Shown here piece after piece: positions 21,889 to 46,402 of a stretch of DNA of 51,485 bases. Source of the DNA: Candidatus Woesearchaeota archaeon (GTDB lineage: Archaea > Nanobdellota > Nanobdellia > Woesearchaeales > DSVV01); contig JAGVYW010000042.1 in NCBI GenBank assembly GCA_018303075.1, positions 1 through 51,485 of the forward strand. Reading direction: 5' to 3'. A program made the position numbers and the translations under genes. The notes beneath the pieces were generated by a model that was not told the origin of the DNA, made no database searches, and was given only the letters and a program-made list of their open reading frames with translations. How positions within the stretch are numbered: the first letter of the stretch is position 1; each line of letters opens with the position of its first letter.

Positions 21889-22845
21889 GTGAAAAAGATG
21901 AATGAAATAAAAAATAAATTTAAGACAAGTATTGCAGGATTTCAATTACATAATTATTTGTTTAATGCATCTGGACCAAGATGCATGACATTGGAAGAAT
22001 TAATTGCATTAGGAGAATCAAGAAGCAGTGTAATACTTTCAAAATCATGCACACTGCTTCCAAGAGAAGGTAATCCTGAGCCGCGATATTTTGATCTACC
22101 ACTTGGTTCAATCAATTCAATGGGCTTGCCAAATCTTGGATATAAGAAATATGTAGAGTTTGCTCCTCTGCTGAGAAGATATAATAAACCTTATTTTGTA
22201 AGTGTTTCTGGTTTGAGTTTAGCTGATAATATCACAATGATTTCTGAGCTATCTGAAGTTCCAGAGATAGATGCGTTTGAATTAAATCTTTCCTGTCCAA
22301 ATGTTATCGGAAAACCACAAATAGGATATGATTTTGAACAAACTAAGCAAGTATTAGATGAAGTTATGAAAATCACAAAAAAACCATTTGGTGTAAAACT
22401 GCCGCCGTATTTTGATTTTGTGCATTTTGAAGAAATGGCAAAGATACTTAATAAACATAATATAGCTTTTGTCACATGCATCAATTCAATAGGAAACGGG
22501 CTTTTTGTTGATGCTGATACTGAAAAAGCAGTAATAAAACCAAAAGGAGGATTTGGTGGATTAGGAGGAGAATACGTTAAGCCAACTGCATTAGCAAATG
22601 TAAAGAAATTTTATGAATTGCTACGAAAAGATATTGCAATTATTGGTGTAGGAGGCATTGCTAGTGGAATGGATGCGTTTGAATTTTTATTATGCGGGGC
22701 AAGCGCTGTGCAGATTGCAACTGCATATCAAAAAGAAGGAACTGCTGTATTTGCAAGAATTGAAAAAGAATTTATCGAGTTTTTAGAGAAGAAAGAATAC
22801 AATAGTCTTAGTGAAGCAAAAGGAAAGCTGAAGATTTACGAATGA
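21889..22845 (+). CDS. pyrD: Dihydroorotate dehydrogenase (class 1)
   Basis: NASGPRCMTLEEL, SINSMGLPNLG, ELNLSCPNV, IGVGGIASGMDAFEFLLCGASAVQI; start GTG 21889 or ATG 21898. Confidence 0.92.
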   Translation: MKKMNEIKNKFKTSIAGFQLHNYLFNASGPRCMTLEELIALGESRSSVILSKSCTLLPREGNPEPRYFDLPLGSINSMGLPNLGYKKYVEFAPLLRRYNKPYFVSVSGLSLADNITMISELSEVPEIDAFELNLSCPNVIGKPQIGYDFEQTKQVLDEVMKITKKPFGVKLPPYFDFVHFEEMAKILNKHNIAFVTCINSIGNGLFVDADTEKAVIKPKGGFGGLGGEYVKPTALANVKKFYELLRKDIAIIGVGGIASGMDAFEFLLCGASAVQIATAYQKEGTAVFARIEKEFIEFLEKKEYNSLSEAKGKLKIYE

Positions 22846-24818
22846 TTTGGGGTAACTCAATGGAAAATGATACAAGATTATTATTAGAGAATTGCACAGT
22901 TGTAAATACAGACGGAATGTTTTCAAAGAAAAATATCTTTATTGAAAATGGAAAGATTACAAAGATTGAAAGTAATAATTTTGTCAATAATGTTTCGTAT
23001 AAAGTTATTGACTGTACTGGGAAACTTGTACTGCCTGGATTAATCGACTGCCATGTACACTTTCGTGATCCTGGATTTCCAGAAAAAGAAGATTTTTTTA
23101 CTGGAAGCTCTGCTGCAGCTGCAGGAGGAGTAACTTCTGTGTTAGAAATGCCAAATACATCTCCTACGACGTTTAATCGAGAATTGCTTCAACAAAAGAG
23201 AGATATCGCAAACCATAAAAGTGCTGTGAATTATGGTTTTTACATAGGAGCAGCAGCTGATAATCTTGAAGAGCTACTGCTGGCTGAGAATATTGCCGGG
23301 ATAAAAGTGTATATGAATCTTACAACAGGAAAATTAATAATAGAAAATGATGCTAATCTGCAGAAAATATTTTCTCTAAACAATAAACTTTTTGCCGTGC
23401 ATGCTGAAGGAAAAACATTTGCAAAAGCATTATCTTTATTCCATGGAAATAATTCATCTAAATTATACTTGTGCCATACTTCTTTACAATCAGAAATTGA
23501 GATGATTAGAAAAGAGAAAGCAGCTGGAAAAATGGTTTATGGTGAGGTTTGTCCGCATCATCTTATTTTCACAAAAGATGATTTGACTAGACTTGGTGGA
23601 TATGGCGTTATGAAGCCTGCATTGGCAACTAATGTCGACAGAAATGCTCTTTGGGCAGCAATAAATGATGGCACAATTGATGTGCTCGCAACTGACCATG
23701 CACCGCATACAAGAGCTGAGAAGAATTGTGATAATCCTGCGTTTGGAGTTATTGGGATTGAATTATTGCTGCCATTAGCATTGACATGGTATCATGAAGG
23801 AAGATTAAGCCTTAGAAAAATAATAGAATTGTGCTGCGAGAATCCTTGCAGAATCTTTGAGATAAAAAACAAAGGTTATCTTAGAGAAGGATATGATGCT
23901 GATATTGTCATTGTTGATCTAGCTGCTGAGAAGATTGTCAATGATGAACTTCTTTTTTCAAAAGCAAAAGGTTCTCCATATAATTGGATGAAATTAAAAG
24001 GATTGCCTGTGATAACAATTGTTAATGGCAATATTGTGTTTGAAGACGGCAGAATCAATGAATCAATAAAAGGAAAAGAATTGATTTTTGAACAAGATGA
24101 AACTGAAAAAGAAAATAAAACTAGGGTAAAAAGCGATTCAAATGTAGATATTGGAGAGAGTATTGCAGTTGGAGAAGATATAACTGAAAAGACTGCAGAG
24201 ATATTATTAGATACAAAAGCAATAATTGTCAATGCAGAAAAACCATATAGATATGTATCTGGAATACTAAGCCCTATCTATTGCGATAATAGAATCCTGC
24301 TGTCTTATCCTGACAAAAGAAAAATTATAGTTGAGAGCTATCTTGCATTGCTTGAAAGAGAAGATGTACAATTTGATGTTGTTGCCGGGGTTGCAACTGC
24401 AGGAATACCTTGGGCAGCAATGATAGCAAACAGATTGGATAAGCCATTGATATATGTCAGAGCTGAGAAGAAAGAACATGGAAAGCAGAATGCAATAGAG
24501 GGTGAGTTGGGAATCGGACAAAGAGTATTGGTTGTTGAAGATTTGATATCTACTGGAGGAAGCAGCTTGAAAGCAGTGCAGCAGATTAGAGATGCACAAG
24601 GCATTGTTGACAATTGTATTGCAATAATGAATTATGAATTTGAGGATAGCAGAAATAAATTTAATGAGAAAGGCTGTACTTTGCTGTCATTAACTAATTT
24701 CTCTGCTCTCAGCAAAAAGGTATTGGATAGAAAATATATTAATCTAGCTGACTATAACAAAATAAAAGAATGGAATACAATACCAAAAGAATGGGGAAAG
24801 AAATTTGGGTTTGAATGA
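22842..24818 (+). CDS. pyrC-pyrE: Fused dihydroorotase - orotate phosphoribosyltransferase
   Basis: N-half DCHVHFRDPGFPEKEDF, ATDHAPHT; C-half GVATAGIPWAAMIANRLDKPLIYVRAEKKEHG, VLVVEDLISTGGSS; start may be ATG 22860. Confidence 0.92.
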   Translation: MIWGNSMENDTRLLLENCTVVNTDGMFSKKNIFIENGKITKIESNNFVNNVSYKVIDCTGKLVLPGLIDCHVHFRDPGFPEKEDFFTGSSAAAAGGVTSVLEMPNTSPTTFNRELLQQKRDIANHKSAVNYGFYIGAAADNLEELLLAENIAGIKVYMNLTTGKLIIENDANLQKIFSLNNKLFAVHAEGKTFAKALSLFHGNNSSKLYLCHTSLQSEIEMIRKEKAAGKMVYGEVCPHHLIFTKDDLTRLGGYGVMKPALATNVDRNALWAAINDGTIDVLATDHAPHTRAEKNCDNPAFGVIGIELLLPLALTWYHEGRLSLRKIIELCCENPCRIFEIKNKGYLREGYDADIVIVDLAAEKIVNDELLFSKAKGSPYNWMKLKGLPVITIVNGNIVFEDGRINESIKGKELIFEQDETEKENKTRVKSDSNVDIGESIAVGEDITEKTAEILLDTKAIIVNAEKPYRYVSGILSPIYCDNRILLSYPDKRKIIVESYLALLEREDVQFDVVAGVATAGIPWAAMIANRLDKPLIYVRAEKKEHGKQNAIEGELGIGQRVLVVEDLISTGGSSLKAVQQIRDAQGIVDNCIAIMNYEFEDSRNKFNEKGCTLLSLTNFSALSKKVLDRKYINLADYNKIKEWNTIPKEWGKKFGFE

Positions 24819-26426: not shown

Positions 26427-29400
26427 TTATTTTTGTTTCTTTTTATAATATACTACTCCTACAATAATCACAACAATCAGTACAAGTACAACTAATGCAC
26501 CCATTCCTGAACCTGCTCCTCCAAATAATTGGTCAAATGCTTTTCCAGCTAAATCTCTTTTTGTTTTTTTGTCAACTTTCTTTGCAGTTTCTCTTGTCTC
26601 TCTTCTCTCTGCTTTTACAGAAGTTTCAGTTGTTGTTTCTGCTACAACTGAAGCAGGTGTAGTTTCTTTAGCTACTTCTTTTTTAGGTGTTGGTTCAGCT
26701 GGCACTGCAGGTGCTACTGGAGTTGCTACAGGAGGTGTTACTATAGGAGTACTGCTTCCTCCACCGCTACCTCCATTGTTGTTATCTCCTCCACCTGAAT
26801 ATACATTTATATAATGTCCTGAGTAACCAATAGATGTTGGAATCTTACATTCTGTTTCTGTTGTGTTTCCTGTGCAATTTACATAAGCTGTGCTGTCTGT
26901 ACAATCAGAGATGTTATCTTCATCACAATGCTTAAATATATTGTTTGCATTGTATGCAACTGGAAATTCTTCAATTATATAATCATTAGCTCCACCCATA
27001 CCAAAACTAAACAAGTTTTCTGACCATGCTTCTTCATCTGAATCCATACCAATCATTTTTTGGGTAGTATTACATACTAATTTATTTTGCAAGTCAATGT
27101 CTTGCGGCTGTGTAATATCTACTCCAACAAAAGTCATGTCATAATTGCCATCGTCACATTCAATTGTCATATTACAGTTTTTTGTTATAGATGTATTTAC
27201 TTTAATTGCATAACTTCCATTCCAATTTGTTTTATTATATCCATTGCACATCAAGTCAACTTCATAACCTGCGTCTAAATCCAAATCAAATAAAACTTTT
27301 TTAGTTTCTGTTTTTGTTGTAAAATTCAAACATGCACTTTTTGCTGTATTATTAGATGGATCAATTACTCTTGTCTTAAAGAAATAATCAGTTCCTGTTT
27401 GTAATGAATAACCAAGAATGTTATAGTCCAGATTTATTCCATGAAATGGTTTGTAGTCATCAAAAGTAAATGATGGATCTCCTAAATCATCTAATGTTGC
27501 GTTTACTGTAACACATGAAGAGTCATTGAAATAAAACAATACTGCTCCTTTTGCCGGCTCATCTGTATCAAATTTAATAAATGCACCATCTGACCATTCA
27601 TCAACCATCTGGAATAATACCATTGGTGATTTCTTATCATTTGCATTAGCTATAAAATTAAATGAACCTCCGCATTTAGGCATTGGTGTACAGATTGGGT
27701 CATCACAGTCAACTAAATCATCATTATTGTCATCTTTATTATTAAAGCAGTCTTCAAATGACATAAATCCTTTATCCTTGATAAACGCACATTCTTCATC
27801 TGTACTTGCAGGTTTTCCATCTCCATCTATATCAGGATCTCCTGGACAGAAACAACACTCTGGTTTCCAATCAACTGTGCCTTTTGTATAATAACCAGGT
27901 CCAGCAGAATCTGTGATAAATGTAGCATTATGCCCTGATATAACAAATACCCTCATAACTTCACTTGCATTGTACATTGTTGTGTAACTCTCTAAATCTT
28001 CATAACTAACAGCGATACCAGCACCACCAACCATCTGACATGAAATTCCCCTATCAACATATAATGCCACACTTGTTGGCGACCAGCTTCCACCTGAACA
28101 TTTATAGAATGTTTTTGTATCAGTTGTCTTGTTTTGTGTTGACCATTGCTCTAAATAATTTATCATAAACTCAAAACCTTGCAATTTATTTCCGTCTTGG
28201 TCAGTTGCATTACAGTTATTTGATGAGTTTCCATCAGTATCTAAATACCAAATAAATCTTGTAGTATTAGTTCCATTGTTTACTGCAGTAGGCAAACCCA
28301 TTTCATTATAAAAATGAGTTGGTTTTCCATTACACATAGCTGCTTTTTTTGTTTGTGTTACTCCAATTCCAAAACCAAGTTCTTGTCCTAAATCCTTAAT
28401 ACCAAAATATCTTATATCTACTGCTTCTAATGTATCATTTTGCTCTGTTGTACTTGTTCCCCAACCTGTTGGTGTATTCCAGTCTTGTTTACCTGGCTCA
28501 GAAGGAATTGGCCCAACATCAGTATCATCTCCTAAATGGAAAAACTCCATGTTATTAAAAATTCCTTGTGCATTTTGAATAGGCCCCATCATTATTCCCC
28601 CACCAAAAGGATTTGCTGCTCCGCCTCCACCAAAACCAGCACCCGCAAATTTATCCCCTCCTGATTTTGGGTCACAAAGCTCTTCTCCTGTACTATTATA
28701 ATATTGACAAGATGGTTTTTCTTCACAAGCTGTTATATTTCCATCATAGTCTGCGCAATCTGCATAGAATGAAGGATCACATGCAGTTTCTACCCATTCA
28801 CACATAGGTTTACTATCAACACATCCTGTACTGTTAAAATTAGAGTTGAAACAATTTGGCTCACAATGTCCACCCATTCCTTCCATCATTGGCCCCATAA
28901 AATCATTTGACCATGTACAATTTCCATTAGCACTACAACTTGATGAGTTCCATAATTGATGACATTGTGTAAAGATTGAAAAATCACAAAATCCTGGTCC
29001 TCCACCAACACCATCTGGATCACTCCAACTACAATATTGGTTTTGACTACAATTTGTAGTATTTAACCCATTACATACTTTTCCAGTTGATTTCTTTACA
29101 TCACACCATCCAGCGCCTGGTCCGTCTTCTACTGTTAAATTAACCCATCTACAACCAGATGTAGCATTACACATTACTTCATTTTCTTCAAATGACCAGC
29201 ATTGCTCTCCTGGATTTGCACATCTTAATGAATTTGACCAAGTATCAGATATCCATGTACAATTATAGTTCTGCCCAGCTAATATTACTTGTCCATTAGC
29301 GCATGTAGCATTGGAATTATATTGTCCACAATTTCCAAATGAATCTCCTCCGCATGCTTTATCAAATGAGCAATCTTTATCATTACAATCAGTGCTATCA

Positions 29401-31370
29401 TCTCCGTCATTATCTATACCATCAAAGCAAACCTCTCCATCAAATCCAGTAGGTTTACAATAATAATATGTGCTGTCCCATGTACAAGATAAAGGATTTG
29501 ATAAATTAGCTGTGTTTAAACAATCAGTTTCAGTTGGGCATGACATACAATCTTGACTGCAGACTTTCTTTGAATTACCTACACAAAAACCACCATAAGA
29601 ATCAGTAATCCATTTACAACCTGCATTACTTTGCTCGCATTTTTCCTGTTGAATATTAACATCAGTTGAGACTATGCCACAACTTTTACAGTCAGTATTA
29701 CAATCTCCTCCACCAAACTTAAATTGCTGTGGCGGAAGACAAGTTCCGTATCCATTTGCAGCATTTGTATTATTTTGATACTGACAGTATCCTAAACTAG
29801 AAGCAAGACAAGCTATCTGAGCATCACTAACTGAGCTAACTTCTGTACCATTTTGATAAAACCATTCGCATGCTCCGCAAAAACTATTACAGTTTTCAAA
29901 CATTCCTCCACCTGATGTTGTACCTTGTTTACAGAAACAATCATTTTTAATACTGCCATCGAAATCTTCATATTGCTCACATGACCATATTCCTTTTGCA
30001 GCTTGACAAGCACTTTCTCCCCCATTAGTATTATCAATCTCCCAGAAATCTCCAATTGGACCTCCTTTAAACACAGAGTCAAACATAAATTTACATTTGT
30101 TTGATGTATTATCCCAGTTACAAGGCATATTAAATGTAGTTGCCAGCCATGTACAGTTATCTGCAGTCGTAATCTTTGAATCTTCACAAAACTTTATCTC
30201 TTCACCTCCTATTTTTGGTGTACATATTGACATTTCATCTGTTGTTTTAGTTCTATTTATTTTTTGACAATAATTACCAGTTAATGCAGAAGAATTGCCC
30301 CATTTACATCCAGGAAATGGCCCGCAATCACAAGAATTTTTTACTCTTACATCACTGCATTCTATATTATCAGTTGCCAATGTAACATTAAAATATGTTT
30401 TGCTTGCAGTAAATTCTATACCTGAAGCATCTGATTGATGACCTTCACAATACCCTTCTGGTTTATTATAACAAAAACTAGTGCTTTTGCTTATATTTCC
30501 TCCTCCATTTTGAACATTTATTAATCCATTAGTATTCGAACAATAAACACATCCACTGACATTCATACAAACACCAGGATTCATATCTGCAAACCAGCAA
30601 TGCTCTGCTCCTCCACCTTCACCAACAAAATCAGAAGAAGGCGGCATACAACCACCATTGCTTGGATTATAATTACAGCCATTGCCTAAACAATCATTTG
30701 AATTATTATTATATAACTCACAACCAGCTGCTCCACAAGTTTGTGAGCCATTGTTCCAATTACATGGAAACATCAATGATTCAGCTGTCTTGCATTTGCT
30801 TTGATTTCCATTAAAATTATTACATGGCGGGACAACGCAGCATCCAACTGAATCCATACACCAAGGATCATAATCTAATTGATTAGATGCGTTCTTATGA
30901 TGCCATTCACAGATTCCATTTAGATAAGTTGGGTCTTCGCAATAAGTTTCATTTGTGCTGTCTCTATTCCAACAACCCTGCATCTGACAACAACCAACAT
31001 CACTAATATTATCTATTTGTCCAGAAGGACTCCAATCTCCAACTGATTTAAAAGGACACCATGAATTTTGATTTTTATCATTTGCTTCCCATCCACAAGT
31101 TAAGTTATAAGTAGAAACAGCATTATTACATCCACTTTGATCTCCATCAAAATTCCAACAATTTAATTGATCACAACAACCTACAGAATCCATACACCAT
31201 GTATTATTCTCTGCAGGTTTCCATAAACATTTGCCACTCTGCGCATTACACTGCGACTGATTTCCTTGATACTGCCAGCAATTGACAAATTCATCTGCTG
31301 CAACAATTCCAGCAAGAGATAGACAGATTAATAAACTTAACACTAACAAAACAGACCTTTTTGATTCCAT
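26427..31370 (-). CDS. Giant Cys-rich secreted, membrane-anchored surface protein (1647 aa)
   Basis: Signal peptide, many CW..GNQSQCN..GCxW..C..GCC-like modules, Pro/Thr-rich stalk, C-terminal TM + KKKQK. Confidence 0.85.
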   Translation of the reverse strand: MESKRSVLLVLSLLICLSLAGIVAADEFVNCWQYQGNQSQCNAQSGKCLWKPAENNTWCMDSVGCCDQLNCWNFDGDQSGCNNAVSTYNLTCGWEANDKNQNSWCPFKSVGDWSPSGQIDNISDVGCCQMQGCWNRDSTNETYCEDPTYLNGICEWHHKNASNQLDYDPWCMDSVGCCVVPPCNNFNGNQSKCKTAESLMFPCNWNNGSQTCGAAGCELYNNNSNDCLGNGCNYNPSNGGCMPPSSDFVGEGGGAEHCWFADMNPGVCMNVSGCVYCSNTNGLINVQNGGGNISKSTSFCYNKPEGYCEGHQSDASGIEFTASKTYFNVTLATDNIECSDVRVKNSCDCGPFPGCKWGNSSALTGNYCQKINRTKTTDEMSICTPKIGGEEIKFCEDSKITTADNCTWLATTFNMPCNWDNTSNKCKFMFDSVFKGGPIGDFWEIDNTNGGESACQAAKGIWSCEQYEDFDGSIKNDCFCKQGTTSGGGMFENCNSFCGACEWFYQNGTEVSSVSDAQIACLASSLGYCQYQNNTNAANGYGTCLPPQQFKFGGGDCNTDCKSCGIVSTDVNIQQEKCEQSNAGCKWITDSYGGFCVGNSKKVCSQDCMSCPTETDCLNTANLSNPLSCTWDSTYYYCKPTGFDGEVCFDGIDNDGDDSTDCNDKDCSFDKACGGDSFGNCGQYNSNATCANGQVILAGQNYNCTWISDTWSNSLRCANPGEQCWSFEENEVMCNATSGCRWVNLTVEDGPGAGWCDVKKSTGKVCNGLNTTNCSQNQYCSWSDPDGVGGGPGFCDFSIFTQCHQLWNSSSCSANGNCTWSNDFMGPMMEGMGGHCEPNCFNSNFNSTGCVDSKPMCEWVETACDPSFYADCADYDGNITACEEKPSCQYYNSTGEELCDPKSGGDKFAGAGFGGGGAANPFGGGIMMGPIQNAQGIFNNMEFFHLGDDTDVGPIPSEPGKQDWNTPTGWGTSTTEQNDTLEAVDIRYFGIKDLGQELGFGIGVTQTKKAAMCNGKPTHFYNEMGLPTAVNNGTNTTRFIWYLDTDGNSSNNCNATDQDGNKLQGFEFMINYLEQWSTQNKTTDTKTFYKCSGGSWSPTSVALYVDRGISCQMVGGAGIAVSYEDLESYTTMYNASEVMRVFVISGHNATFITDSAGPGYYTKGTVDWKPECCFCPGDPDIDGDGKPASTDEECAFIKDKGFMSFEDCFNNKDDNNDDLVDCDDPICTPMPKCGGSFNFIANANDKKSPMVLFQMVDEWSDGAFIKFDTDEPAKGAVLFYFNDSSCVTVNATLDDLGDPSFTFDDYKPFHGINLDYNILGYSLQTGTDYFFKTRVIDPSNNTAKSACLNFTTKTETKKVLFDLDLDAGYEVDLMCNGYNKTNWNGSYAIKVNTSITKNCNMTIECDDGNYDMTFVGVDITQPQDIDLQNKLVCNTTQKMIGMDSDEEAWSENLFSFGMGGANDYIIEEFPVAYNANNIFKHCDEDNISDCTDSTAYVNCTGNTTETECKIPTSIGYSGHYINVYSGGGDNNNGGSGGGSSTPIVTPPVATPVAPAVPAEPTPKKEVAKETTPASVVAETTTETSVKAERRETRETAKKVDKKTKRDLAGKAFDQLFGGAGSGMGALVVLVLIVVIIVGVVYYKKKQK

Positions 31371-35337: not shown

Positions 35338-35853
35338 ATGGAAGCAAAAGTTGCCATATTAGAACCTTTTTTTCAGAAACCAAGAGAGGCATTTCATATA
35401 AGAGAAGCTGCAAAACTTACAAGCATAAACCATACAACTGTCAGAAAATATCTGCAGGAGATGGTTAAAGAAGGGATATTAACAATCAAAGAGGATAAGT
35501 TATATGATATGTATATGGCAGCTGATTCTCCTGCATTTCGTAATATACATTTATATTATACTCTTGAAATAATACGAAAATCAAAGTTTCTTGCAGAAAT
35601 TGAGAAAAATGATAAAGATGCAGCTGTTGTGCTTTCTGCTTTTACAGAATCTATAGAATTATGCATGATCTATCAGAAAAAGAAAGAATATCCTACTCAG
35701 GAATTAGAGAAAGCTTTTGGAAAGAATATTGCTGTACAATATTATGATATTAAAAAGCTGCAAAATTGTCTGAAAAAGGATGCATTGCTGTTTCAGAAAA
35801 TTATTAATGGCATTGTTATCAATGGTAAGATTACAGTTACTGATTTTTTATGA
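35338..35853 (+). CDS. Winged-HTH regulator with degenerate nucleotidyltransferase domain
   Basis: Same layout as 931..1584; VVLSAFTESIELCMIY in place of VLFGSFAKG...SDIDI; shared FQKIINGIVINGKI ending. Confidence 0.7.
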   Translation: MEAKVAILEPFFQKPREAFHIREAAKLTSINHTTVRKYLQEMVKEGILTIKEDKLYDMYMAADSPAFRNIHLYYTLEIIRKSKFLAEIEKNDKDAAVVLSAFTESIELCMIYQKKKEYPTQELEKAFGKNIAVQYYDIKKLQNCLKKDALLFQKIINGIVINGKITVTDFL

Positions 35854-35870
35854 ACGGAGTGTAAAAAATA

Positions 35871-37027
35871 TGAATAAGAAAGCAATTAAATTAACAAGCG
35901 AGGCATTGATTGAAGCAGTATTGATTACAATTGTAATCATAGCATTTGCCTTTTATATCAGCTCATTAAAAGAAGACACACTAATTGAAAAAACAGCAAT
36001 TATCAGAGAATTGTCAATGCTTGCAAATACTGTACAAACAAGCCCACAGGATGTGATAGTGATATATAATAAAAATAATCTGAACAAATATCATTTTTCA
36101 TTTAAGGAGAATTATGTACAGATTAAACAACAGGATTATGCAACTGTGCTGTATCCTTATTACACAGATATGATGCTTTTAATGATGCTGCAAGAGATTG
36201 ATAAAAAAGAGCAAATTGTACTTTCAAGCTTCAAAGATAGTTTTGTTGTTTCTCCTGAAACAATTGTCGGCTTTGCTTCTCAGAGAGGATACAGTTTTAA
36301 TCCTATAAGCGCAGGAGGTAATGGAGTTGTTCAGAACAATGGTCTACAGAAAAATGCACAATCAGCACTTAGCCTTATTAACTGCCCACTTGCAAAGTCA
36401 ACAGCTGCATTGACTACAATTGTACTTGATGCTGGCAAAGGAGATTATGCTGCAATGCCTGATGAGAATGAGCAAGAGATTTTTGTGCTTGATACTGGTG
36501 CAGAGAATAAAGCATTAGGTATCAAGGAACATGAACTTACCATAAAAACAGCGATCATGCTTGAGACAGCACTGCGATTAAAGATTAAGAATGCATTTAT
36601 CAAAAAAACAAGAACACAAAATGAAGATGAAAGTTTTACTTATTATGAAAGACTGCAAAGATTTAGTGCAGATGATAATCTTGTGATTAGCATTCGTATG
36701 TATCAGGCAGAAGAGAATGAAAACAAAATAATTTTGTATATCTTATCTGGAAAAAATGAGCTGCAGAACCAAAAGATTGCATGCCTGCTAATGAATGAAC
36801 TACAAACAAAGGTATCAGGATTAACACATAAAGTTGAGATAAGATACTTGCCTAAAACTGATGATTATTACCCAATATTAGAAAAGAACAGCAAAGAAAA
36901 TGATAATCTAGCTGTTTTATTAGAGCTTGGAAATATTAACAATAAAGACAATGCTTTGTACAGCCAACCAGATGCTACGGTGGATGCAATAGCTGCAGCA
37001 ACTGCTGCATATAATGAGGATAGGTAA
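35871..37027 (+). CDS. Pilin-like N-terminus + degenerate N-acetylmuramoyl-L-alanine amidase (amidase_3)-like domain
   Basis: Start at MNKKAIKLTSEALIEAVLITIVIIAF; VLDAGKGD for VLDAGHGG, KEHELTIKTA, KKTRTQNED.FTYYERLQRF, LVISIRMY for ISIHxN. Confidence 0.6.
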
Positions 37028-37645
37028 ATGAAAAAAACAAAAATAACTCATTTTTTTTTACAAAAAAATAAAAAAAAAGGTTTTGCCTATTTTCAGATCA
37101 TCTTTGCTTTTTACAGAGCGTTTGTGCTGATGCTTGTTGTATTATCAATCATAATGATAACGAAATTGTTTATCAAAGTAACATTTGATACACAAAAAGC
37201 AGAGATGGAACTGTTTAAAGAACAATTGTTATACTCTAAAGACGGAATTTCGCTGTATGACAGAGAAACGCAGCTGCTTTATCCAGGAGTTATTGATTAT
37301 AACCTCTTAAAGAATAAAGCATTGTTTGAAAGCAAACTTCTGCAAGGATTTTATTTTAAAGATAAACCCCTTGTAGCTGCAAAGCTTGAATTTTCCCTTC
37401 CTACTGAAATTATTGAACTAACTGATCCTACTTATGAAATATTTGAACCAATATTTTATCATGAAGATTATTTTAAAGAGCTAGCTGTGCTTGCAAATAC
37501 AAAGTTGATAGGAGCAGGAGGAGCAAAGATGATCAAACGAGAAACTCCTGTGTTAATTAAGAAAATTATTGTAGAAAATAATCTTGCAGTTGAAAAATAT
37601 ATTCCTGCATATCTGACAATCACGATTGTAAGTTCAAATAGTTGA
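37028..37645 (+). CDS. Pseudopilin-like membrane protein, unknown function
   Basis: Basic N-terminus followed by one hydrophobic helix; in envelope operon. Confidence 0.6.
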   Translation: MKKTKITHFFLQKNKKKGFAYFQIIFAFYRAFVLMLVVLSIIMITKLFIKVTFDTQKAEMELFKEQLLYSKDGISLYDRETQLLYPGVIDYNLLKNKALFESKLLQGFYFKDKPLVAAKLEFSLPTEIIELTDPTYEIFEPIFYHEDYFKELAVLANTKLIGAGGAKMIKRETPVLIKKIIVENNLAVEKYIPAYLTITIVSSNS

Positions 37646-37664
37646 TCAGAAAATAATTGATGGT

Positions 37665-38243
37665 ATGAAAAAGATGAATAAAAATAATCAGTTTAAAAAT
37701 AGAATATCGAATAAAAAAGCTGCGACACCATCACAGATATTAATAGACTTTTGGGCAACATTGGTTATTGTAATCATCTTAGCAATATTCTTTTTTATCT
37801 TATATATATCACAAGACAATAGAGAGATTGCAATCAAAGCACAAGCAGCTGAGTTTGAGGTTAATGATGAATTACTCCATCTGCTGCAATATCCTGTTAT
37901 TATTGACGGAAAGACGATGAGCTTTTCTGAAGCAATTGCTGTTTCTGTTCAGAAAGATGATTTTACTGAACTTGAACAAGCATTTGTCAAAGTAAAATCA
38001 TTAATCCAAACAAGATTATATTTTCAATCTAATGGATGTATTGAAATAAATATTGAATATTCTGGTGGAAAAAGAACAATTCCTGCTACTATTAATTGTG
38101 AAGAATACAGCAAATATGAACGTAGTACTGAAAAGATATACAAAAGTAAGGTAGAAATACCATCTTTTGAAGGTGAAAGCATCAGTGTTACTTATTCAGC
38201 AAGTAAAATTACCAATGAAGTTAAACGGAAGTATGAATCATAA
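37665..38243 (+). CDS. Pseudopilin-like membrane protein, unknown function
   Basis: ISNKKAATPSQILIDFWATLVIVIILAIFFFILYI. Confidence 0.6.
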   Translation: MKKMNKNNQFKNRISNKKAATPSQILIDFWATLVIVIILAIFFFILYISQDNREIAIKAQAAEFEVNDELLHLLQYPVIIDGKTMSFSEAIAVSVQKDDFTELEQAFVKVKSLIQTRLYFQSNGCIEINIEYSGGKRTIPATINCEEYSKYERSTEKIYKSKVEIPSFEGESISVTYSASKITNEVKRKYES

Positions 38244-38299
38244 GTAGAATAATGAGTCATAAGTAAAATAATATATATGAATAATAGGTAGGAATAAAC

Positions 38300-40480
38300 A
38301 TGGAAATAGAAATCAGAGAAACAACAAAAAGAAGAAGAATAAACAAGAAATCACAGATATTCATGATGTTATTAGTCTTTGTTACTCTAACAACTATAAT
38401 TTCTATCTATTTTGTACTTTCTGAAAAAAGAGCAAATGTTAAAAATGATTTTGGAAAAGAAAGCATGAATCTTATAAGTGGATATCAAGAAGAACAGAAA
38501 TTACTGCATACAATCCAACTGCAAGCTAAATTTGCATATTATCAATCAGTATATGACCTTGGATTGTCTGGAGGAGTTGGGATTGAAAATAATTGCGGTA
38601 AATACAGAGGATTTATCAATTATTATAATGATCCTGAACTTCAGCAATGTTTACCTTTGACTCCAGAAAAAGAATTGGCTGCGCTGATGAATAAAGAGAT
38701 GAGATTTGTTGAAGAAGGAATTGATGGAAACAAAGTAAGTGTATTTTATAATACTGAACTGAAAGATAATTATATAATTGGAAAGGCAAATGGATCAATT
38801 GCATATACATATGATAGTACAAATCAAGTATTAAATCTTGGTTCAATTGAAGTCAAACAATTATCTCCAGATGAATATGCACAGTTATACCATCCTAATA
38901 CAATTGGAAGTCCAAGCGGCAGTGGTGTTAAACAATTTCCAACTTGCGATAAAACAGAAGATGTAATCATTGAGCTTTCTAATGAAAAAGAAAAGCCAGA
39001 AAACCAAGTGAATTATGGAAGAATATGGATTCCAGCTGAAGCTTTGTGCGGAGGAGAATTTCCATTGCTAATAATGCTGCACGGACATTCACGACCAGAA
39101 ATTGCTTATATTGGAGAAAAGGCAGGATACCGTGTTGATAAAGATGTAAGGATATTAATAAACGAAAGGAAGATTTATCCTGTAATCCTTGCTGCACCTC
39201 TTGGAATAAAAACAACTAAAGGCACTCCTTGGCCAGCTGGACAATTAGATATTGACAAATATATTGCAAGAATACAAGAAGAAGTAAAAAAACATAATCC
39301 TAAAATTGCAATAAGCAAAGTTGGAATGACAGGACATAGTGCTGCAAATTGTTATACAAATACGGCATTACAATATTATCCCGCAAAATATAATTTTTAT
39401 TTTGTTGGTTCTGCAGATGGAACATGCGGTAATTTTAAGAATGCAGTTGGAACTGATAATTATGCACAGGAGATCACACAAAAGATTGGAAAAAAGGATA
39501 CAATATATGTTTTAATGCATCGCAATAGCGAGAGAGGAGACCAATCATCAGAAGCATTTATGACAGAAAACAGCGCTGATGATTCAGCTGATAGTATTGC
39601 AAAAGATAATTATGTTTCTGTTGTAAAGAAAAATAATAGGGAATATTATAGATATCTGCTAGACCCACAGAAATATAGACATGATACTGTACCAAAAATT
39701 ATGATAATTGAGATTTTGCAGAGGTTTTTTACATTAGAAAAGGTTGGTAGCATTGCTCCTTATGCTGCTGTTTATCAGGATATACAATTAGGAAGTTTGG
39801 GATGTAAGAGAACACAATATAATATAAATAGTGAATCAATTGGTACACCTAATTGCGGTGCTTTGAAGAATGCAGTTTTGTTTGTAAGGAATACAGATTA
39901 TTATAAATCTGATCACGACACTAAAAAAGCATATGCAACTGTTGAATTAGTTAATATTATTGAGGATATTGGCTGTGTGCTGACTGCAAAAAGTAACTAT
40001 GGGCCGCAAGGAAAAGTTGCTGTTGGACAAACAAGCTATGAATATGGAGGAAAATTATATGCTCATTCGTCGCATCAGAGCGGAAGGGATGCCGATATTG
40101 GATTTTTCTTCAGAGATAAAAAACAGCAATTGGTTAGTATGCAGACTGTGATGGTTAATACAAAGACAAATGCTGTTGATCCACGTTTTGACTTAGAAGC
40201 TAATTGGCTGTTCGTAAGAGAATTTTTTAAACATGATTTAGCAGAGAGTATTTTTATTTATGGTGCATTAGAAGACGCACTTATTGCTTATGCAGAACAA
40301 CATAATGAAGATAAATCATTGATTGAAAAAGCTAAACAAAAAATGGTTGGCGGGTATGAAGAATTAGGTCATGATCATAGAGATCATTATCATATCAGGA
40401 TTAAATGCCCACACGGAGATAATTTATGTAAAACTAAATATAAGAAATGTGATAATTATTATATTGCTCAGGCGAAATGA
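38300..40480 (+). CDS. Membrane-anchored alpha/beta hydrolase + M74 (MepA-like) murein endopeptidase fusion
   Basis: LLIMLHGHSRPE, VGMTGHSAANCYT (hydrolase); HSSHQSGRDADIGFFF, HDHRDHYHIRIKCP (M74). Confidence 0.75.
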   Translation: MEIEIRETTKRRRINKKSQIFMMLLVFVTLTTIISIYFVLSEKRANVKNDFGKESMNLISGYQEEQKLLHTIQLQAKFAYYQSVYDLGLSGGVGIENNCGKYRGFINYYNDPELQQCLPLTPEKELAALMNKEMRFVEEGIDGNKVSVFYNTELKDNYIIGKANGSIAYTYDSTNQVLNLGSIEVKQLSPDEYAQLYHPNTIGSPSGSGVKQFPTCDKTEDVIIELSNEKEKPENQVNYGRIWIPAEALCGGEFPLLIMLHGHSRPEIAYIGEKAGYRVDKDVRILINERKIYPVILAAPLGIKTTKGTPWPAGQLDIDKYIARIQEEVKKHNPKIAISKVGMTGHSAANCYTNTALQYYPAKYNFYFVGSADGTCGNFKNAVGTDNYAQEITQKIGKKDTIYVLMHRNSERGDQSSEAFMTENSADDSADSIAKDNYVSVVKKNNREYYRYLLDPQKYRHDTVPKIMIIEILQRFFTLEKVGSIAPYAAVYQDIQLGSLGCKRTQYNINSESIGTPNCGALKNAVLFVRNTDYYKSDHDTKKAYATVELVNIIEDIGCVLTAKSNYGPQGKVAVGQTSYEYGGKLYAHSSHQSGRDADIGFFFRDKKQQLVSMQTVMVNTKTNAVDPRFDLEANWLFVREFFKHDLAESIFIYGALEDALIAYAEQHNEDKSLIEKAKQKMVGGYEELGHDHRDHYHIRIKCPHGDNLCKTKYKKCDNYYIAQAK

Positions 40481-41586
40481 AAATGAAAAAAAACAACCAG
40501 AAAAAAAGAATAAGCAGGCATATCACACTATTGTCAATTATACTTCTCTTCCCTATGACTCTGTTTTTATCTCATATTGTTTCTGCTGAACCACAACTGT
40601 TAATTAGCATTGATAATGATAATCATCTTGAAGATTTCCAAGTAATTGCAAACAATGATTATTATGGAGAAAAATATTATCCTTTGCTTGCTGAAGAATA
40701 TGGTGAGGAGATTTTAGTAGAGCCTAAGAAATTTCATTATAGAGCAAGATTAAACAATGTAGAATTTTCTCAACTAAATAACAGATTTGCATTATCATTA
40801 AATCCGAAAACAACAACCATAAAAATATTTGATGATAATCTTGTTGTGAGTAATAATGATAATAATAAGAATGCAATTTTCATCAAACAAATCTCTTTCT
40901 GCAACAACAATAATATTTGTGAACCTTGCGAAGGTGTTGATTGTAATCTAATGGAATCTTCTTTGACGTGCAGTGATTGTAAAACAGGGGAGAAAGATTT
41001 AGTTTGTGATTTAATATATGATGGAATATGTGATCCGGATTGTGAAGATAAGGATAAAGACTGCAGCAGCTGCAATGAGAATGAAAATAATTGCTATGAA
41101 TATAACGAAGAAACACAATGCTCTGAAGAATATAATGGAAAAACATGTTTTTTTGGAAAAAGCTGCGCTGAAGGAGATGGTGTAACAATTGGAGATACTT
41201 TGTGCTGTCCAAACAGTTATTGTATAACTTCTTTTTTTTCAATGAATGAAAAAAAAGAGATTGAGAAAACAGAAGAAAAACAAAATGAAGAAAAAGAGAT
41301 ACAATTTACAGATCAAACTGCAATAAATAAAAAACAATCATTTATTGTTTATTTTGTGCTTATTGGAGTGTTAATTGCTGCAGTATTATCATTATCCATC
41401 TATTTTATCAGAAAGCTGTACAAATCAAAAATGCTAGTGATTGAGATTCAACGATTGAAAAATATAAACAGATATAGTTATGCAGAGATTAAAGTATATC
41501 TAGAGAAGCAAGGATATAAAAAAGGAGATATTGATTTAGCAATACAACAACATTATCTGTATGATAAGAATGTTAAGAATCACTAA
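40477..41586 (+). CDS. Secreted Cys-rich protein with C-terminal TM and cytoplasmic tail
   Basis: Signal peptide; CNNNNICEPCEGVDCNLM...CSDC; TM; SYAEIKVYLEKQGYKKGDIDLAIQQH. Confidence 0.65.
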   Translation: MKMKKNNQKKRISRHITLLSIILLFPMTLFLSHIVSAEPQLLISIDNDNHLEDFQVIANNDYYGEKYYPLLAEEYGEEILVEPKKFHYRARLNNVEFSQLNNRFALSLNPKTTTIKIFDDNLVVSNNDNNKNAIFIKQISFCNNNNICEPCEGVDCNLMESSLTCSDCKTGEKDLVCDLIYDGICDPDCEDKDKDCSSCNENENNCYEYNEETQCSEEYNGKTCFFGKSCAEGDGVTIGDTLCCPNSYCITSFFSMNEKKEIEKTEEKQNEEKEIQFTDQTAINKKQSFIVYFVLIGVLIAAVLSLSIYFIRKLYKSKMLVIEIQRLKNINRYSYAEIKVYLEKQGYKKGDIDLAIQQHYLYDKNVKNH

Positions 41587-41625
41587 TCGTGCTTTTTAAC
41601 ATTACTTTGAAAAAGGACCGAAAAC

Positions 41626-44600
41626 ATGAAATATAGCTTTGAGACAAATAGCTTCAAGACAAAAACAAGAAAAATACTGCAATTTTTGTTAGCTACTGCT
41701 TTCCTGCTATTATGTACTGCTTTTGCCATAGCAGATGATTTTAATTTTGCTGTAATTACAGATACAAATATTGGTATAGGAAGTATTGTATTAGCTAAAC
41801 AAAGTGATGCAGTTGTCAGTTCTATTATTCATTCTCCACAAAAGATTGATTTTGTCATTCACTTAGGCAATATGGTTGCTGGAAGCAGCAGTACAACAGC
41901 AGAAGATGCTGAGAAGATGTGGCAGGAATATAATCAAAAAATTGTTTCACAACTTTCTGATAAACAAATAGGAATATTGCTTATCGCTAATCAACAAGAC
42001 AAAGCAAATGTAGCATCAGAAAATAATTATATCAATATGTTTAAGTCAACAAAACATGATTTTGCATCCTCAGCAGCTGTAAAAGAGAATTACGCATTTG
42101 TGTATAAGGATAATTTATTTATTGTCTTACAATATGATAAGAATATTGACAAAAGCTGGCTGAAAGAGCAACTAGAAAAGAATTATCAAACAGTTGATCA
42201 TGTGTTTGTATTCTCTGTAAATGAATTTGCTGCAATTGCAAAAGAAAAAACAGCTGCTATTAGCTGCAATAACTGCAATGAGCTATTTGCTGCACTTGAC
42301 AGCTATAGCAATAAATATGGCAATAAAATAACCTTGTTTACATCATCATCTCAAGTATATTTTAAAGGAGATTACAAAGGATATGATGTTGTCTCTGTCG
42401 GAGCAATTGATGAACCACACACAATAATTGGTGTCAATGAACGGCAGAAAGCTGTGTATAGTGTTGTTGCTGTCAATGATAAGAATAAAATTATCTATGG
42501 TGTTGAAGAACCATTTGACCATTGGTTTTATGAATGCAGAAATCTGCCATTAATACAGCCAAAAGGATATGATAAATTTAATGGGATTATCACTGGATGC
42601 CAGCAGATTGAAGGAGAAAGTGAGGATGGAAAAGGAATCAATAAAAAATATGGTTTGACACAGTCACCATGCATTATTCCACCACAATTTGAGGGATATG
42701 AAGAATATACCAGAAAAAGAGGATTGAACATAAACAGCTTTAATGAAAAACATCCTGAATATGATGCAATTATATTAGAGGCATCACAGAAATTTAATGT
42801 ACCTTTTGAATTGATCAAAGCAATCATAATGGAAGAATCTGGAGGAAATCCATTTCCATCAAAAGAATCTCTTGGTGGAAAAATATGCAATAAGAATGGA
42901 TGCTTATGCAATGAACAAGGATATTGTGGATTGATGGGAACTGGATTAGATTATGTTTGCTTGACTCAAGCAGAATGTAATAAAGAAGCATTTATCAAAG
43001 GAAGTGTTAAAGACCAGATTTTTGCAGGAACAGCAATCCTTCAAAGAATAATAAAGAAAAAAAGCTGCAAACTTGATAATAAAAATCTGCTTGAAGATAT
43101 TAATAACCCGCAATATATTATGCATTTATTTGGATGCTATGGAAAAGGTATTGCTGATAATAAAGAATATTGTGAAAGAGAAAAAAAGCCGTGCGGTTAT
43201 CCTGTTTTCCTTCGCAGAGCAATGCAAAAAAACGGTAAACCTTTGGAAAAGATTACTCCAATAGATATTGCCACTGTAACAACAACTGCAAATGCTATTG
43301 TGCATAGTTACATAAAAGAGATCAAATTAGACCTATGTAAAAAAGGAGTTATCAATGATCAAATAACACATCCTATTAATCAGAATCTTATTGCAGTACA
43401 AGGCCAGTCCGCATTAGCTAAGGTAGGAGTAGCAAAAGGAGTTTCAACTGTGTATTATCTAACACCAAACTTTAGAATTCCTATTGATAATTCACTTAAT
43501 GATTATAAAACAATACGAGAGGCAGCAACTCAGCTAGTAACTGAAATCAATGACTGCAGAAGCCATGGTAATAATGTTGAGAATTGTTTTAGTATAAGCA
43601 TCAATAATCAAAAATATAAAACACTTGGAATTACAGCTGACAATCTACTATGTAAAGAGAATAAACTTGACAAATTCATCTATGATTCAATCGAGAATAT
43701 GAAAACATGCTCTAAATTAATTAATAAAAAGTGCTCTATAAATATTCCTTTACAATATCCTGGGGATGCAAAACTTGATGAAAATGAAATTGCATTTGTT
43801 TTTTCATCAGCAGATGAAAAAACAACTCTTGTTTCTGTGTTTGTCAATAATATTCTATATACTACTGATAAAATAAGCGGAAGTTTGGCTTTGTTTGAAG
43901 ACTTAATTGCACAACCTGAGTTTAAAGATGTAAAAAATGCAACAATATTATTGCAGTATGATAAATATCAATTTAAGAGAAGTATATTAGCATTTACTTT
44001 TGAAAATAAAAATACTAATCTTGATGAGAATAAAGAAGAGAATAAAGATTATAATTATCAGTTTGCTCTTCGAGACAAAATAATCTCATTTGTTTTTGAT
44101 CAAGATAATAAATTGAGTTTCTTTAGTGATAAACTGACACAACCATATATTGCTTTTGCTGAAGCACAACAGCAAGAAATTGAAGAGCTACAAAATCTAA
44201 AGAAAGGATTTAAGTTATGCTATTTGAGCAGAAATACAATGTATGCAAATAGTATGTTTGATGCTACTGCTGAAGATACTGCTTATTATGAAAAGAATCT
44301 ACGCTATCCTACAAGACTAAGAAATCTTGTGTACAGATTTGCACTGCTGTTTGATATTTCACAAGCAATTCCACATACAAGTATTGTTGTAAGTGATCTG
44401 CAAAAAGCAGAAAAAACTGTGCTTGTGAAGTTTAATAAACCTAGTACTCCTGTCAAATATTATACATTGTTTTTTTCTGCTGATAAAAATAGTTTAGAGC
44501 TGCCTACTAATGAATTGATGAAAAAAGATAGTGTTATGAAGATTATTCTTGATCCAAGCACAGCAAAAACAGCAAGCGTTGATGATTATACTTTGCCTGG

Positions 44601-45207
44601 AAATGAAATCATTGCTGGCAGATTGTATTATAATTTTATAGAGAATATGTATTTCATTGCAATTACTGTTGATGATGAATCCAAACAATATTATTTTGCT
44701 GTTGCTGGAATGAGTGTTAATAATAAAGAACCAAATAATGTTGATGCTGATCAAAAACTTGAGATTGTTGAAGGAAGTTCTGCTGATGACTTAGCACCAA
44801 TGCCTCCTGAAGTTGTTGTAATTGAAGGAAATATTGCTGCAGATGAATATGAAGAACAAGAGGAAGAACAGGAGGAGATTAACAGTAATATTATAATTGC
44901 TGCTCCAATGCAAGGAAAGATTACAGCTGCTTTGGATAGTGTTATAGATAATAGCAATCCTAACTATCTGCTTACTGATTTAGATGGATATTTTGCTGTG
45001 ATATATGAAAATAAAGCTGATGCTTCATTGAAGCTTACTAAAGAAAATTGTAATACTGAAAATAACTGCCAATTAGTCTCTGCTGTGCTGCCTGAAAATA
45101 AAGATAGATTTGAGATAGAATTTAATGGATTAAATGATGATACTAAATATATGGTTGTTGTGTATGCTGTTGATACTTCTGGAAATTATTTAGAGATTGC
45201 TAAATAA
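41626..45207 (+). CDS. Secreted degenerate calcineurin-like phosphoesterase + SLT lytic transglycosylase domain protein
   Basis: FAVITDTNIG..DFVIHLGNMV..LIANQQD; ILEASQKFNVPFELIKAIIMEESGGNPF...YCGLMG..QIFAGTAILQRI. Confidence 0.7.
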   Translation: MKYSFETNSFKTKTRKILQFLLATAFLLLCTAFAIADDFNFAVITDTNIGIGSIVLAKQSDAVVSSIIHSPQKIDFVIHLGNMVAGSSSTTAEDAEKMWQEYNQKIVSQLSDKQIGILLIANQQDKANVASENNYINMFKSTKHDFASSAAVKENYAFVYKDNLFIVLQYDKNIDKSWLKEQLEKNYQTVDHVFVFSVNEFAAIAKEKTAAISCNNCNELFAALDSYSNKYGNKITLFTSSSQVYFKGDYKGYDVVSVGAIDEPHTIIGVNERQKAVYSVVAVNDKNKIIYGVEEPFDHWFYECRNLPLIQPKGYDKFNGIITGCQQIEGESEDGKGINKKYGLTQSPCIIPPQFEGYEEYTRKRGLNINSFNEKHPEYDAIILEASQKFNVPFELIKAIIMEESGGNPFPSKESLGGKICNKNGCLCNEQGYCGLMGTGLDYVCLTQAECNKEAFIKGSVKDQIFAGTAILQRIIKKKSCKLDNKNLLEDINNPQYIMHLFGCYGKGIADNKEYCEREKKPCGYPVFLRRAMQKNGKPLEKITPIDIATVTTTANAIVHSYIKEIKLDLCKKGVINDQITHPINQNLIAVQGQSALAKVGVAKGVSTVYYLTPNFRIPIDNSLNDYKTIREAATQLVTEINDCRSHGNNVENCFSISINNQKYKTLGITADNLLCKENKLDKFIYDSIENMKTCSKLINKKCSINIPLQYPGDAKLDENEIAFVFSSADEKTTLVSVFVNNILYTTDKISGSLALFEDLIAQPEFKDVKNATILLQYDKYQFKRSILAFTFENKNTNLDENKEENKDYNYQFALRDKIISFVFDQDNKLSFFSDKLTQPYIAFAEAQQQEIEELQNLKKGFKLCYLSRNTMYANSMFDATAEDTAYYEKNLRYPTRLRNLVYRFALLFDISQAIPHTSIVVSDLQKAEKTVLVKFNKPSTPVKYYTLFFSADKNSLELPTNELMKKDSVMKIILDPSTAKTASVDDYTLPGNEIIAGRLYYNFIENMYFIAITVDDESKQYYFAVAGMSVNNKEPNNVDADQKLEIVEGSSADDLAPMPPEVVVIEGNIAADEYEEQEEEQEEINSNIIIAAPMQGKITAALDSVIDNSNPNYLLTDLDGYFAVIYENKADASLKLTKENCNTENNCQLVSAVLPENKDRFEIEFNGLNDDTKYMVVVYAVDTSGNYLEIAK

Positions 45208-45334: not shown

Positions 45335-46402
45335 TTATAGATTAGTAATTGAAGGCATATTAGGGATATTGTTTGGCATAGATTGTAATTCTTTTTCGAG
45401 CTTTTTCATCTCATCCTCAGGATTAATATCTGTGAAAACAAAATTGCTGATAAATTCCAGACGATCAAACATCATGTTCTTTGAGGTTTTGCCTACCACT
45501 TTAATCATCTCACCCAGCAGATCATTCTTTACTTTTGCAAATGATTCAGGAGATTCTTTGAATAAAAGAATCTCCTCTTCCTCTTTTTTGAGAAGCTTTT
45601 TTACCTGATTTTTAAAAAAAACAACCCTGATATTATCTGTACCATCATCAAGGAAAAGATTAACAACATAGGAATACCCGTGCTGTACTGTACCATGTTC
45701 ATTACAGACAAAACCAGATTCTTTTGCTGAAACTTTTTTGCCACAATTAGGACATATCTCAAAAAACTTTATATCAAACACCTGTACAATAGTACCAACC
45801 AACTCAATATTTGTTTCATTTTCTTTTAGATCATGTATCCTTTTCCTTGTAAAATCATACTTCTTTTGCTGCTGCTGCGAAAGCTGAGCAACTGCCACAT
45901 TTGGTGGATTGATAAAAAGCTTGCTTTTTTCATTGAGATGCAGTTCTTTAAAGCCATTGTTCTCTTTAATATAACCTGAAAGCAATTTGATTACATCATT
46001 TTCCTTAAGAACATCAAAGTCTTTTGTAAGAGCATGCCAAAGAACTACTCTTATCTGACCTGTTTCATCTGCTGCAAGAAAACTTGCAACTTTGCCTTGT
46101 ATCTCTCCTCTTTGGAATTCCCTTAAAGTATATTTCTTTGCTACACGAGCATTTAATTCAATGTTACGCATACCTGCAACAAGATCTTTTATCTTGATTG
46201 CGCCAGATGCTTGAACTAGACGTATACCTAAGTCATTTGCAACAATATGTGCAGCACCTTCTTCAGAAATTAAACCAGCCAATTGTGTCATCTTTTGCTT
46301 GATTTTTTCACGAATCTCATCTTCTGAAAGCTGTGATTTTTCCTTAATCTTTTCAATAATTGTATGTAAAGGCATCGATGTCATAGTAAAGCACTTTTTC
46401 AA
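45335..46402 (-). CDS. Replication protein A-like OB-fold ssDNA-binding protein with zinc finger
   Basis: OB-fold GKVASFLAADETGQIRVVLWHALT, CPNCGKKVSAKESGFVCNEHG; likely start MPLHT near 46375. Confidence 0.88.
   Translation of the reverse strand: MKKCFTMTSMPLHTIIEKIKEKSQLSEDEIREKIKQKMTQLAGLISEEGAAHIVANDLGIRLVQASGAIKIKDLVAGMRNIELNARVAKKYTLREFQRGEIQGKVASFLAADETGQIRVVLWHALTKDFDVLKENDVIKLLSGYIKENNGFKELHLNEKSKLFINPPNVAVAQLSQQQQKKYDFTRKRIHDLKENETNIELVGTIVQVFDIKFFEICPNCGKKVSAKESGFVCNEHGTVQHGYSYVVNLFLDDGTDNIRVVFFKNQVKKLLKKEEEEILLFKESPESFAKVKNDLLGEMIKVVGKTSKNMMFDRLEFISNFVFTDINPEDEMKKLEKELQSMPNNIPNMPSITNL

Follow-up and report, generated by a model that had tools for sequence, protein, structure and literature searches.

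A putative pilin-like surface complex with exchangeable bacterial-wall hydrolases encoded by Woesearchaeota

In the present study we analyzed a stretch of 51,485 nucleotides from a Candidatus Woesearchaeota archaeon (GenBank assembly GCA_018303075.1, contig JAGVYW010000042.1, positions 1 to 51,485, forward strand), hereafter the window, in which six co-directional genes on the plus strand (35870-45207) were designated A to F in their order. These genes probably encode a pilin-like surface complex, in which the extracellular C-termini of D, and often of A, together with secreted companion proteins, carry exchangeable hydrolases for the bacterial cell wall. The tetrad A-D is a set of prepilin-like genes that is conserved across Nanoarchaeota and has swappable C-terminal slots. 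A preliminary description of the window had listed the co-directional run, and every open reading frame (ORF) of that list was found in its place on the plus strand. The contig is C12 of the source genome (G000, a Woesearchaeota archaeon; 1.24 Mb, 95% complete), and it was compared with 149 relatives (the G-numbered genomes, G001 being the sister genome), 382 genomes of the phylum and approximately 45 further neighbourhoods that were fetched. A genus-mate genome is that of a groundwater Candidatus Woesearchaeota archaeon (contig JACRKF010000033.1). The six genes and their flanking features are:

35870-37027, plus strand: gene A, prepilin-like N-terminus (NKKA) and an Amidase_3 domain without both zinc-binding His residues (Pfam, alignment and motif survey)
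37028-37645, plus strand: gene B, single-copy pilin-like core whose N-terminal helix of 66 residues precedes an alpha/beta head (phylum profile and AlphaFold2 model)
37665-38243, plus strand: gene C, pilin-like protein with the NKKA motif (synteny and motif scan)
38300-40480, plus strand: gene D, prepilin-like scaffold (approximately residues 1-195), serine-hydrolase-like segment and C-terminal MepA/M74 endopeptidase
39836-40444, plus strand: M74 catalytic domain within gene D (invariant residues aligned to MepA)
40477-41586, plus strand: gene E, Sec-type signal, Cys-rich ectodomain, C-terminal transmembrane segment and short cytoplasmic tail
41626-45207, plus strand: gene F, Sec-type signal, metallophosphoesterase-like domain with degenerate metal motifs, and SLT-like segment with a conserved Glu
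35338-35853, plus strand: winged helix-turn-helix regulator, kept in the sister genome and not seen in the other neighbourhoods; an optional, genus-level gene
45335-46402, minus strand: RPA homologue, a syntenic landmark adjoining the unit in most neighbourhoods and outside the unit proper

Conservation of the tetrad and exchange of its cargo

A profile search found gene B in 204 of the 382 phylum genomes and in 112 of the 149 relatives, in one copy each with one exception, and in the fetched neighbourhoods the order A-B-C-D, mostly followed by RPA, is nearly constant. Genomes of the same class and other orders mostly have small proteins (approximately 125, 160, 170 and 240 amino acids (aa) for A, B, C and D, respectively), with no Pfam cargo noted; in the order of the window, gene D commonly encodes 300-1300 aa. 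What the preliminary description called a "secretion cluster" is not a one-off but a variant of a pilin-like tetrad that occurs across the phylum and takes interchangeable cargo. A version of the locus with duplicated cargo was observed in L150 (G024:C2, 5519-9632), where D is duplicated and several E-like genes stand in a row.

M74 was found in five of the 149 relatives, each belonging to the window's own family. In all five genomes the six genes have the same order, with F adjoining RPA, and the identity outside the genus is 22-35%. Conserved synteny among DPANN relatives, which the preliminary description had left to be checked, was thus found both for the six-gene order in the family and for the A-D order across the phylum; because both recur in this way, the gene run is far beyond chance. 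The cargo of gene D is exchanged among the relatives: M15 stands in place of M74 in G004, NlpC/P60 is found in G003, and M23 together with SLT in G006. G005 and G008, which belong to one genus, have the scaffold and M74 in common but differ in other cargo: in G008, D also contains a CapA domain and A ends in an M15 peptidase, while gene F of G005 has intact phosphoesterase, NAGPA and GDSL-like parts. In the scaffold tree, which is weakly resolved apart from this clade, G004, G005 and G008 form a group (support 99/96) that bears three cargos, namely M15, M74 and CapA with M74.

Pfam domains in 51 D proteins were M23 (8), SLT (6), M74 (6), NlpC/P60 (2) and one each of Amidase_2, Amidase_3, M15, glucosaminidase, CapA and GDSL. 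In 48 A proteins we found nine Amidase_3 domains and one each of muramidase (6e-34), Amidase_2, M15 and SLT. The downstream secreted proteins (n = 26) gave four each of SLT, GDSL, M15, phosphoesterase and C39-like domains, three each of NAGPA and M23, one GH25 (1e-48) and one deacetylase. None of the wall-binding domains LysM, SH3 and PG_binding occurs in the tallies of the A, D and F sets. This repertoire suggests that bacterial peptidoglycan is the likely substrate. Furthermore, the first cargo domain of D starts at approximately residue 175-255 independently of the type of enzyme, and therefore occupies a slot behind a constant scaffold.

The proximity of the enzymes to the locus was analyzed in the 112 relatives with gene B, the expected numbers being those for matches spread evenly over 1.2 Mb. 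Of the 89 genome-wide M23 matches, 31 lie no more than 5 kb from B (0.7 expected), as do at least 27 SLT matches among the 122 listed (1.0 expected) and all five M74 matches. M23 and SLT are thus enriched 25-40 fold near B; the nominal P values (below 1e-29 for both) ignore the kinship of the genomes and are to be read as "very strong" only. In at least 55 of the 112 genomes, one or more of M23, SLT and M74 is present within 8 kb of B, and, as many contigs break off close to gene B, all of these counts are lower bounds.

Enzyme domains of the window proteins

The assignment of an M74/MepA-like endopeptidase to gene D in the preliminary description is well founded. The Peptidase_M74 profile of Pfam matches at 4.7e-16 (59.6 bits, curated cut-off 25), the gene D profile finds Escherichia coli MepA (PDB 1TZP) at 3e-13, and the pattern HxxH...GxDxD...HxxHxH is present, in which H589, H592, D599, H693, H696 and H698 do not vary among the five genomes and correspond in the alignment to the metal and active-site residues of MepA. 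For the alpha/beta hydrolase said to be fused to it, the expected motifs are present in a serine-hydrolase-like segment (LHGH, GHSAANC and an invariant His), but this segment gave neither a profile match nor a PDB match.

The trimmed gene A protein matches Amidase_3 above the cut-off (3.7e-7; 30.8 bits against 27), as the name amidase_3-like given to it earlier implies, but both zinc-binding His residues are lost. In the alignment, GHGG is changed to GKGD and SxH to SIR (that is, to K and R) in the window and in four relatives of the family, and the profile of gene A had no match in the PDB. The first zinc motif is intact in gene A of L160, L161 and L169, from other families, and gene A of L032 retains both His motifs (EPGHY and SLHIG). 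Judging from these residues, gene A of the window is a probable pseudo-enzyme.

As for gene F, the AlphaFold2 model is of low confidence (mean pLDDT 38), with the SLT part unresolved and the N-terminal phosphoesterase part alone usable; this part has a metallophosphoesterase fold, with matches to purple acid phosphatase and GpdQ at E of approximately 1e-8. The alignment shows that the window protein is without the metal motifs that L008 keeps, and its phosphoesterase looks catalytically dead. In the SLT part, the column of the catalytic Glu (E404) is invariant among the orthologues, the orthologue from G002 (L007) matches SLT at 1.1e-14 (54.5 bits), and a weak MltC match was found besides. As read from the aligned motifs, single enzyme modules have decayed repeatedly in proteins that are themselves retained, because the zinc or metal motifs are lost in A and F of the window and intact elsewhere.

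The source genome has further SLT proteins. One of 439 aa (G000:C35, L195 1264-2583) has a twin-arginine-like N-terminus and a beta-lactamase-family domain (PF13354, 4e-9) fused to SLT (1e-15), and another is encoded in G000:C5 (L196 1768-2730). The C-terminal approximately 80 aa of gene E (transmembrane segment and tail, "Y..I...L...GY....I..AI") recur at the ends of many proteins of the relatives, and may be a common element for sorting or anchoring.

Pilin-like character, assembly machinery and source genome

The prepilin N-terminus was identified by our own motif scan with a loose criterion. An NKK[GAS]-type N-terminus before a hydrophobic helix was found in 54 of 61 A proteins, 47 of 56 B, 90 of 98 C and 52 of 54 D, and the same rule is passed by 253 of 717 other ORFs. 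The motif is rarer in E (5/23) and F (6/10), and the E and F of the window are without it. The model of gene B (pLDDT 78) consists of a single helix of 66 residues (4-69) and an alpha/beta head. The two single-helix pseudopilin-like proteins reported earlier are single-helix membrane proteins, but the pilin fold was not matched; no solved pilin resembled the model of B, and none was found by profile searches.

The source genome encodes an A24 prepilin peptidase and two TadC-like (T2SSF) proteins, all unlinked to the locus, as well as an intein-split ATPase of the CpaF/FlaI/GspE type (T2SSE), which is followed by a protein with eight transmembrane segments. The orthologous ATPase of G005 matches PDB 2OAP at 1e-26. 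The secretion ATPase is present in 142 of the 149 relatives, mostly in a single copy, and the three loci that were inspected have no pilin genes next to it. We infer that A-D are candidate pilins of this orphan nanoarchaeal ATPase. The possibility that the source genome has no assembly ATPase was rejected, because the gene is split by the intein. The intein (G000:C29:56550-60377; L199 6548-10390), in which splicing and LAGLIDADG domains were confirmed, has counterparts in the ATPase of G001, G002, G007, G017, G062, G072 and G113; judging from open frames of approximately 1260-1330 aa and the breaks in the matches, insertion probably took place at two sites, close to residues 501 and 555.

No penicillin-binding protein (PBP) transpeptidase (PF00905) was found in the source genome, and its sole Mur-ligase match is a protein of 416 aa that combines the M and C domains of Mur_ligase with the signature GTNGKGS. 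A murein pathway of its own based on this match was rejected, since the motif is of FolC type and the protein looks like FolC. Thus, the absence of mur genes, which the preliminary description had expected, agrees with the genome in that no PBP transpeptidase or true Mur ligase was detected, MraY, MurG and MurJ not having been searched for. Among the relatives, G015 (C2 and C7) has three strong Mur-ligase matches.

Two neighbours that had been placed alongside the system do not belong to it. The subtilase is conserved within the genus only (shared with G001 alone) and lies outside the conserved unit, and the giant Cys-rich surface gene (26427-31370; 1647 aa, no Pfam match) is missing from the corresponding spot in G001. 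Elsewhere in the window, a fusion of a dihydroorotase-like amidohydrolase with a phosphoribosyltransferase domain (22842-24818) lies within a pyrimidine operon with CarA, CarB, PyrD and PyrF-like neighbours.

Interpretation, alternatives and known systems

The most probable explanation of these results is as follows. A, B, C and D would form a conserved core of four prepilin-type proteins, which may be processed by the prepilin peptidase and assembled or moved by the orphan CpaF/FlaI-type ATPase and its partner with eight transmembrane segments. The complex would be displayed at the cell surface and would press the hydrolases on the peptidoglycan of contacted bacteria, possibly for attachment and penetration, killing or release of nutrients. 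In the source genome, the working cutters are predicted to be the MepA-type endopeptidase of D and probably the SLT domain of F; the decayed amidase and phosphoesterase may be retained as structural or binding modules. As a guess, the accessory domains (NAGPA, GDSL, CapA, phosphoesterase and deacetylase) might strip decorations from the wall. A more specific possibility, which we advance with some doubt, is that of a contact-dependent antibacterial machine, that is, an ATPase-driven, phylum-wide A-D tip complex whose polymorphic slot has taken up most of the known families of peptidoglycan hydrolases, by which wall-less DPANN archaea would bore into bacterial hosts or prey. The action on the walls of neighbouring or host bacteria that the preliminary description proposed is consistent with the wall-less archaeon, the synteny and the cargo repertoire, but the amidase and phosphoesterase of the window look dead.

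Several observations weigh against the pilin-like hydrolase complex. The degenerate metal sites of these two enzymes are among them, and the SLT match of gene F in the window itself is below the threshold (E 0.02; 14.9 bits against 21.3); of the secreted SLT protein described earlier, the Sec-type signal, the invariant Glu and the strong G002 orthologue hold, but the domain match in the window is weak. The fold search with gene B gave no PDB match at E <= 0.001, the best being ribosomal proteins, and A-D are classed with the pilins by their N-terminal motif and by the long helix. Furthermore, the secretion ATPase is unlinked to the A-F locus. A PBP-transpeptidase-like protein is encoded in two family members, G006 (C19) and G010 (C129); the murein-type genes of these genomes and of G015 either come from contamination or are a genuine but partial murein gene set of Woesearchaeota. 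Furthermore, wall cutting cannot be the original role of the tetrad, because the tetrad of the class-level relatives has no recognisable cargo.

Some of these points would also fit other explanations. The N-terminal helices could be plain membrane anchors and A-F independent surface hydrolases clustered by chance, as the missing fold match of B, the absence of an ATPase gene from the locus and the number of other ORFs passing the loose N-terminal test might suggest. However, the A-B-C-D order is fixed in nearly all neighbourhoods, including those without cargo, B is a single-copy gene with a long unbroken helix in its model, and the motif is present in nearly all A-D proteins; we regard this explanation as unlikely. 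The tetrad could also be an ordinary type IV pilus for adhesion or DNA uptake, the enzymes clearing peptidoglycan from biofilm or debris and not attacking live cells. Although the genome has the prepilin peptidase, secretion ATPase and platform for such a pilus, and cargo-less tetrads in class-level relatives would fit it, the fusion of enzymes to pilin-like proteins in one slot points to contact-dependent delivery, with which scavenging is still compatible, and an ordinary pilus seems quite unlikely.

A domesticated role, in which bacterial enzymes serve the archaeon's own envelope, glycan coat or surface assembly, would account for dead enzymes among the modules, for the PBP-like protein in two family members and for a chromosomal locus that is kept vertically beside a housekeeping gene, unlike typical weapon genes. 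In the source genome, however, there is no PBP transpeptidase and the only Mur-type ligase is FolC-like. In addition, the cargo covers nearly every class of peptidoglycan bond and differs between closely related genomes, as would be expected of changing targets more than of a constant substrate of the archaeon itself; because wall-specific domains swap fast, remodelling of the own envelope is argued against, and we consider it very unlikely. As for the origin of the contig, the enzyme families are bacterial by origin, as would be expected of bacterial contamination or a mobile element, but the same contig also encodes PCNA, RPA and an archaeal RNase J, and the locus beside RPA recurs in dozens of independent archaeal genomes. 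The contig, for which the preliminary description had raised the question of a bacterial bin, is archaeal; contamination or a provirus was ruled out by the phylum-wide synteny, and the probability left to a bacterial or mobile origin is negligible.

The results bear on the question what the uncultured DPANN archaea, Woesearchaeota among them, live on; those in culture all rely on archaeal hosts (PMC11291902). As a fixed surface apparatus that goes on gaining hydrolases of the bacterial wall, the pilin-like complex would imply that approximately half of the relatives tested have bacterial hosts or prey. It is already known that archaea without peptidoglycan encode hydrolases of the bacterial wall, which are prominent and diverse in Nanoarchaeota, and that some archaeal wall hydrolases are able to kill bacteria (Strock et al. 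2025, PLoS Biol, PMC12352652). The survey of Strock et al. required both a wall-binding and a catalytic domain; the genes that it recovered, in approximately 5% of genomes, were patchy in distribution and enriched on plasmids. In contrast, the present locus has no wall-binding domain in its cargo tallies; the targeting part would be the pilin-like scaffold at one chromosomal locus, and M23, SLT or M74 is present there in approximately half of the relatives that have the scaffold. Because a wall-binding domain was required, enzymes borne on the scaffold would be missed by that survey. Vigneron et al. (2022, PMC9723730) read murein-degrading enzymes, including lytic transglycosylases of Woesearchaeota, as signs of predation by "vampiristic" DPANN archaea; the parts of that paper relevant here deal with single GH23 genes and describe no linked scaffold or locus.

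The components resemble those of archaeal type IV pili (Makarova et al. 2016, PMC4858521) in the prepilin-like genes, CpaF/FlaI-type ATPase, TadC-like platform and prepilin peptidase, but A-D are unlinked to the ATPase, and a search for a pilin-fold match of B found none. The words "peptidoglycan" and "transglycosylase" do not occur in that census, which lists nanoarchaeal ATPases without identifiable pilins (PMC4858521); A-D would provide candidate pilins for them. A literature search (Woesearchaeota/DPANN, pilin, peptidoglycan), which did not cover subscription papers and preprints, gave no description of the locus. Gene B beside RPA may serve as a genomic marker, and the locus as a pool of natural wall-cutting enzymes. 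In the window, the enzyme resembles MepA of peptidase family M74 (same profile, same metal and active-site residues), but forms the C-terminal cargo of an archaeal protein that is prepilin-like and anchored in the membrane. Polymorphic effector tips, such as those of the VgrG, PAAR and Rhs type and phage tail lysins, combine a constant delivery part with an exchangeable enzymatic end. The delivery proteins are unrelated to A-D, and the likeness of the locus to these tips is one of analogy only: a constant scaffold behind which the enzyme changes.

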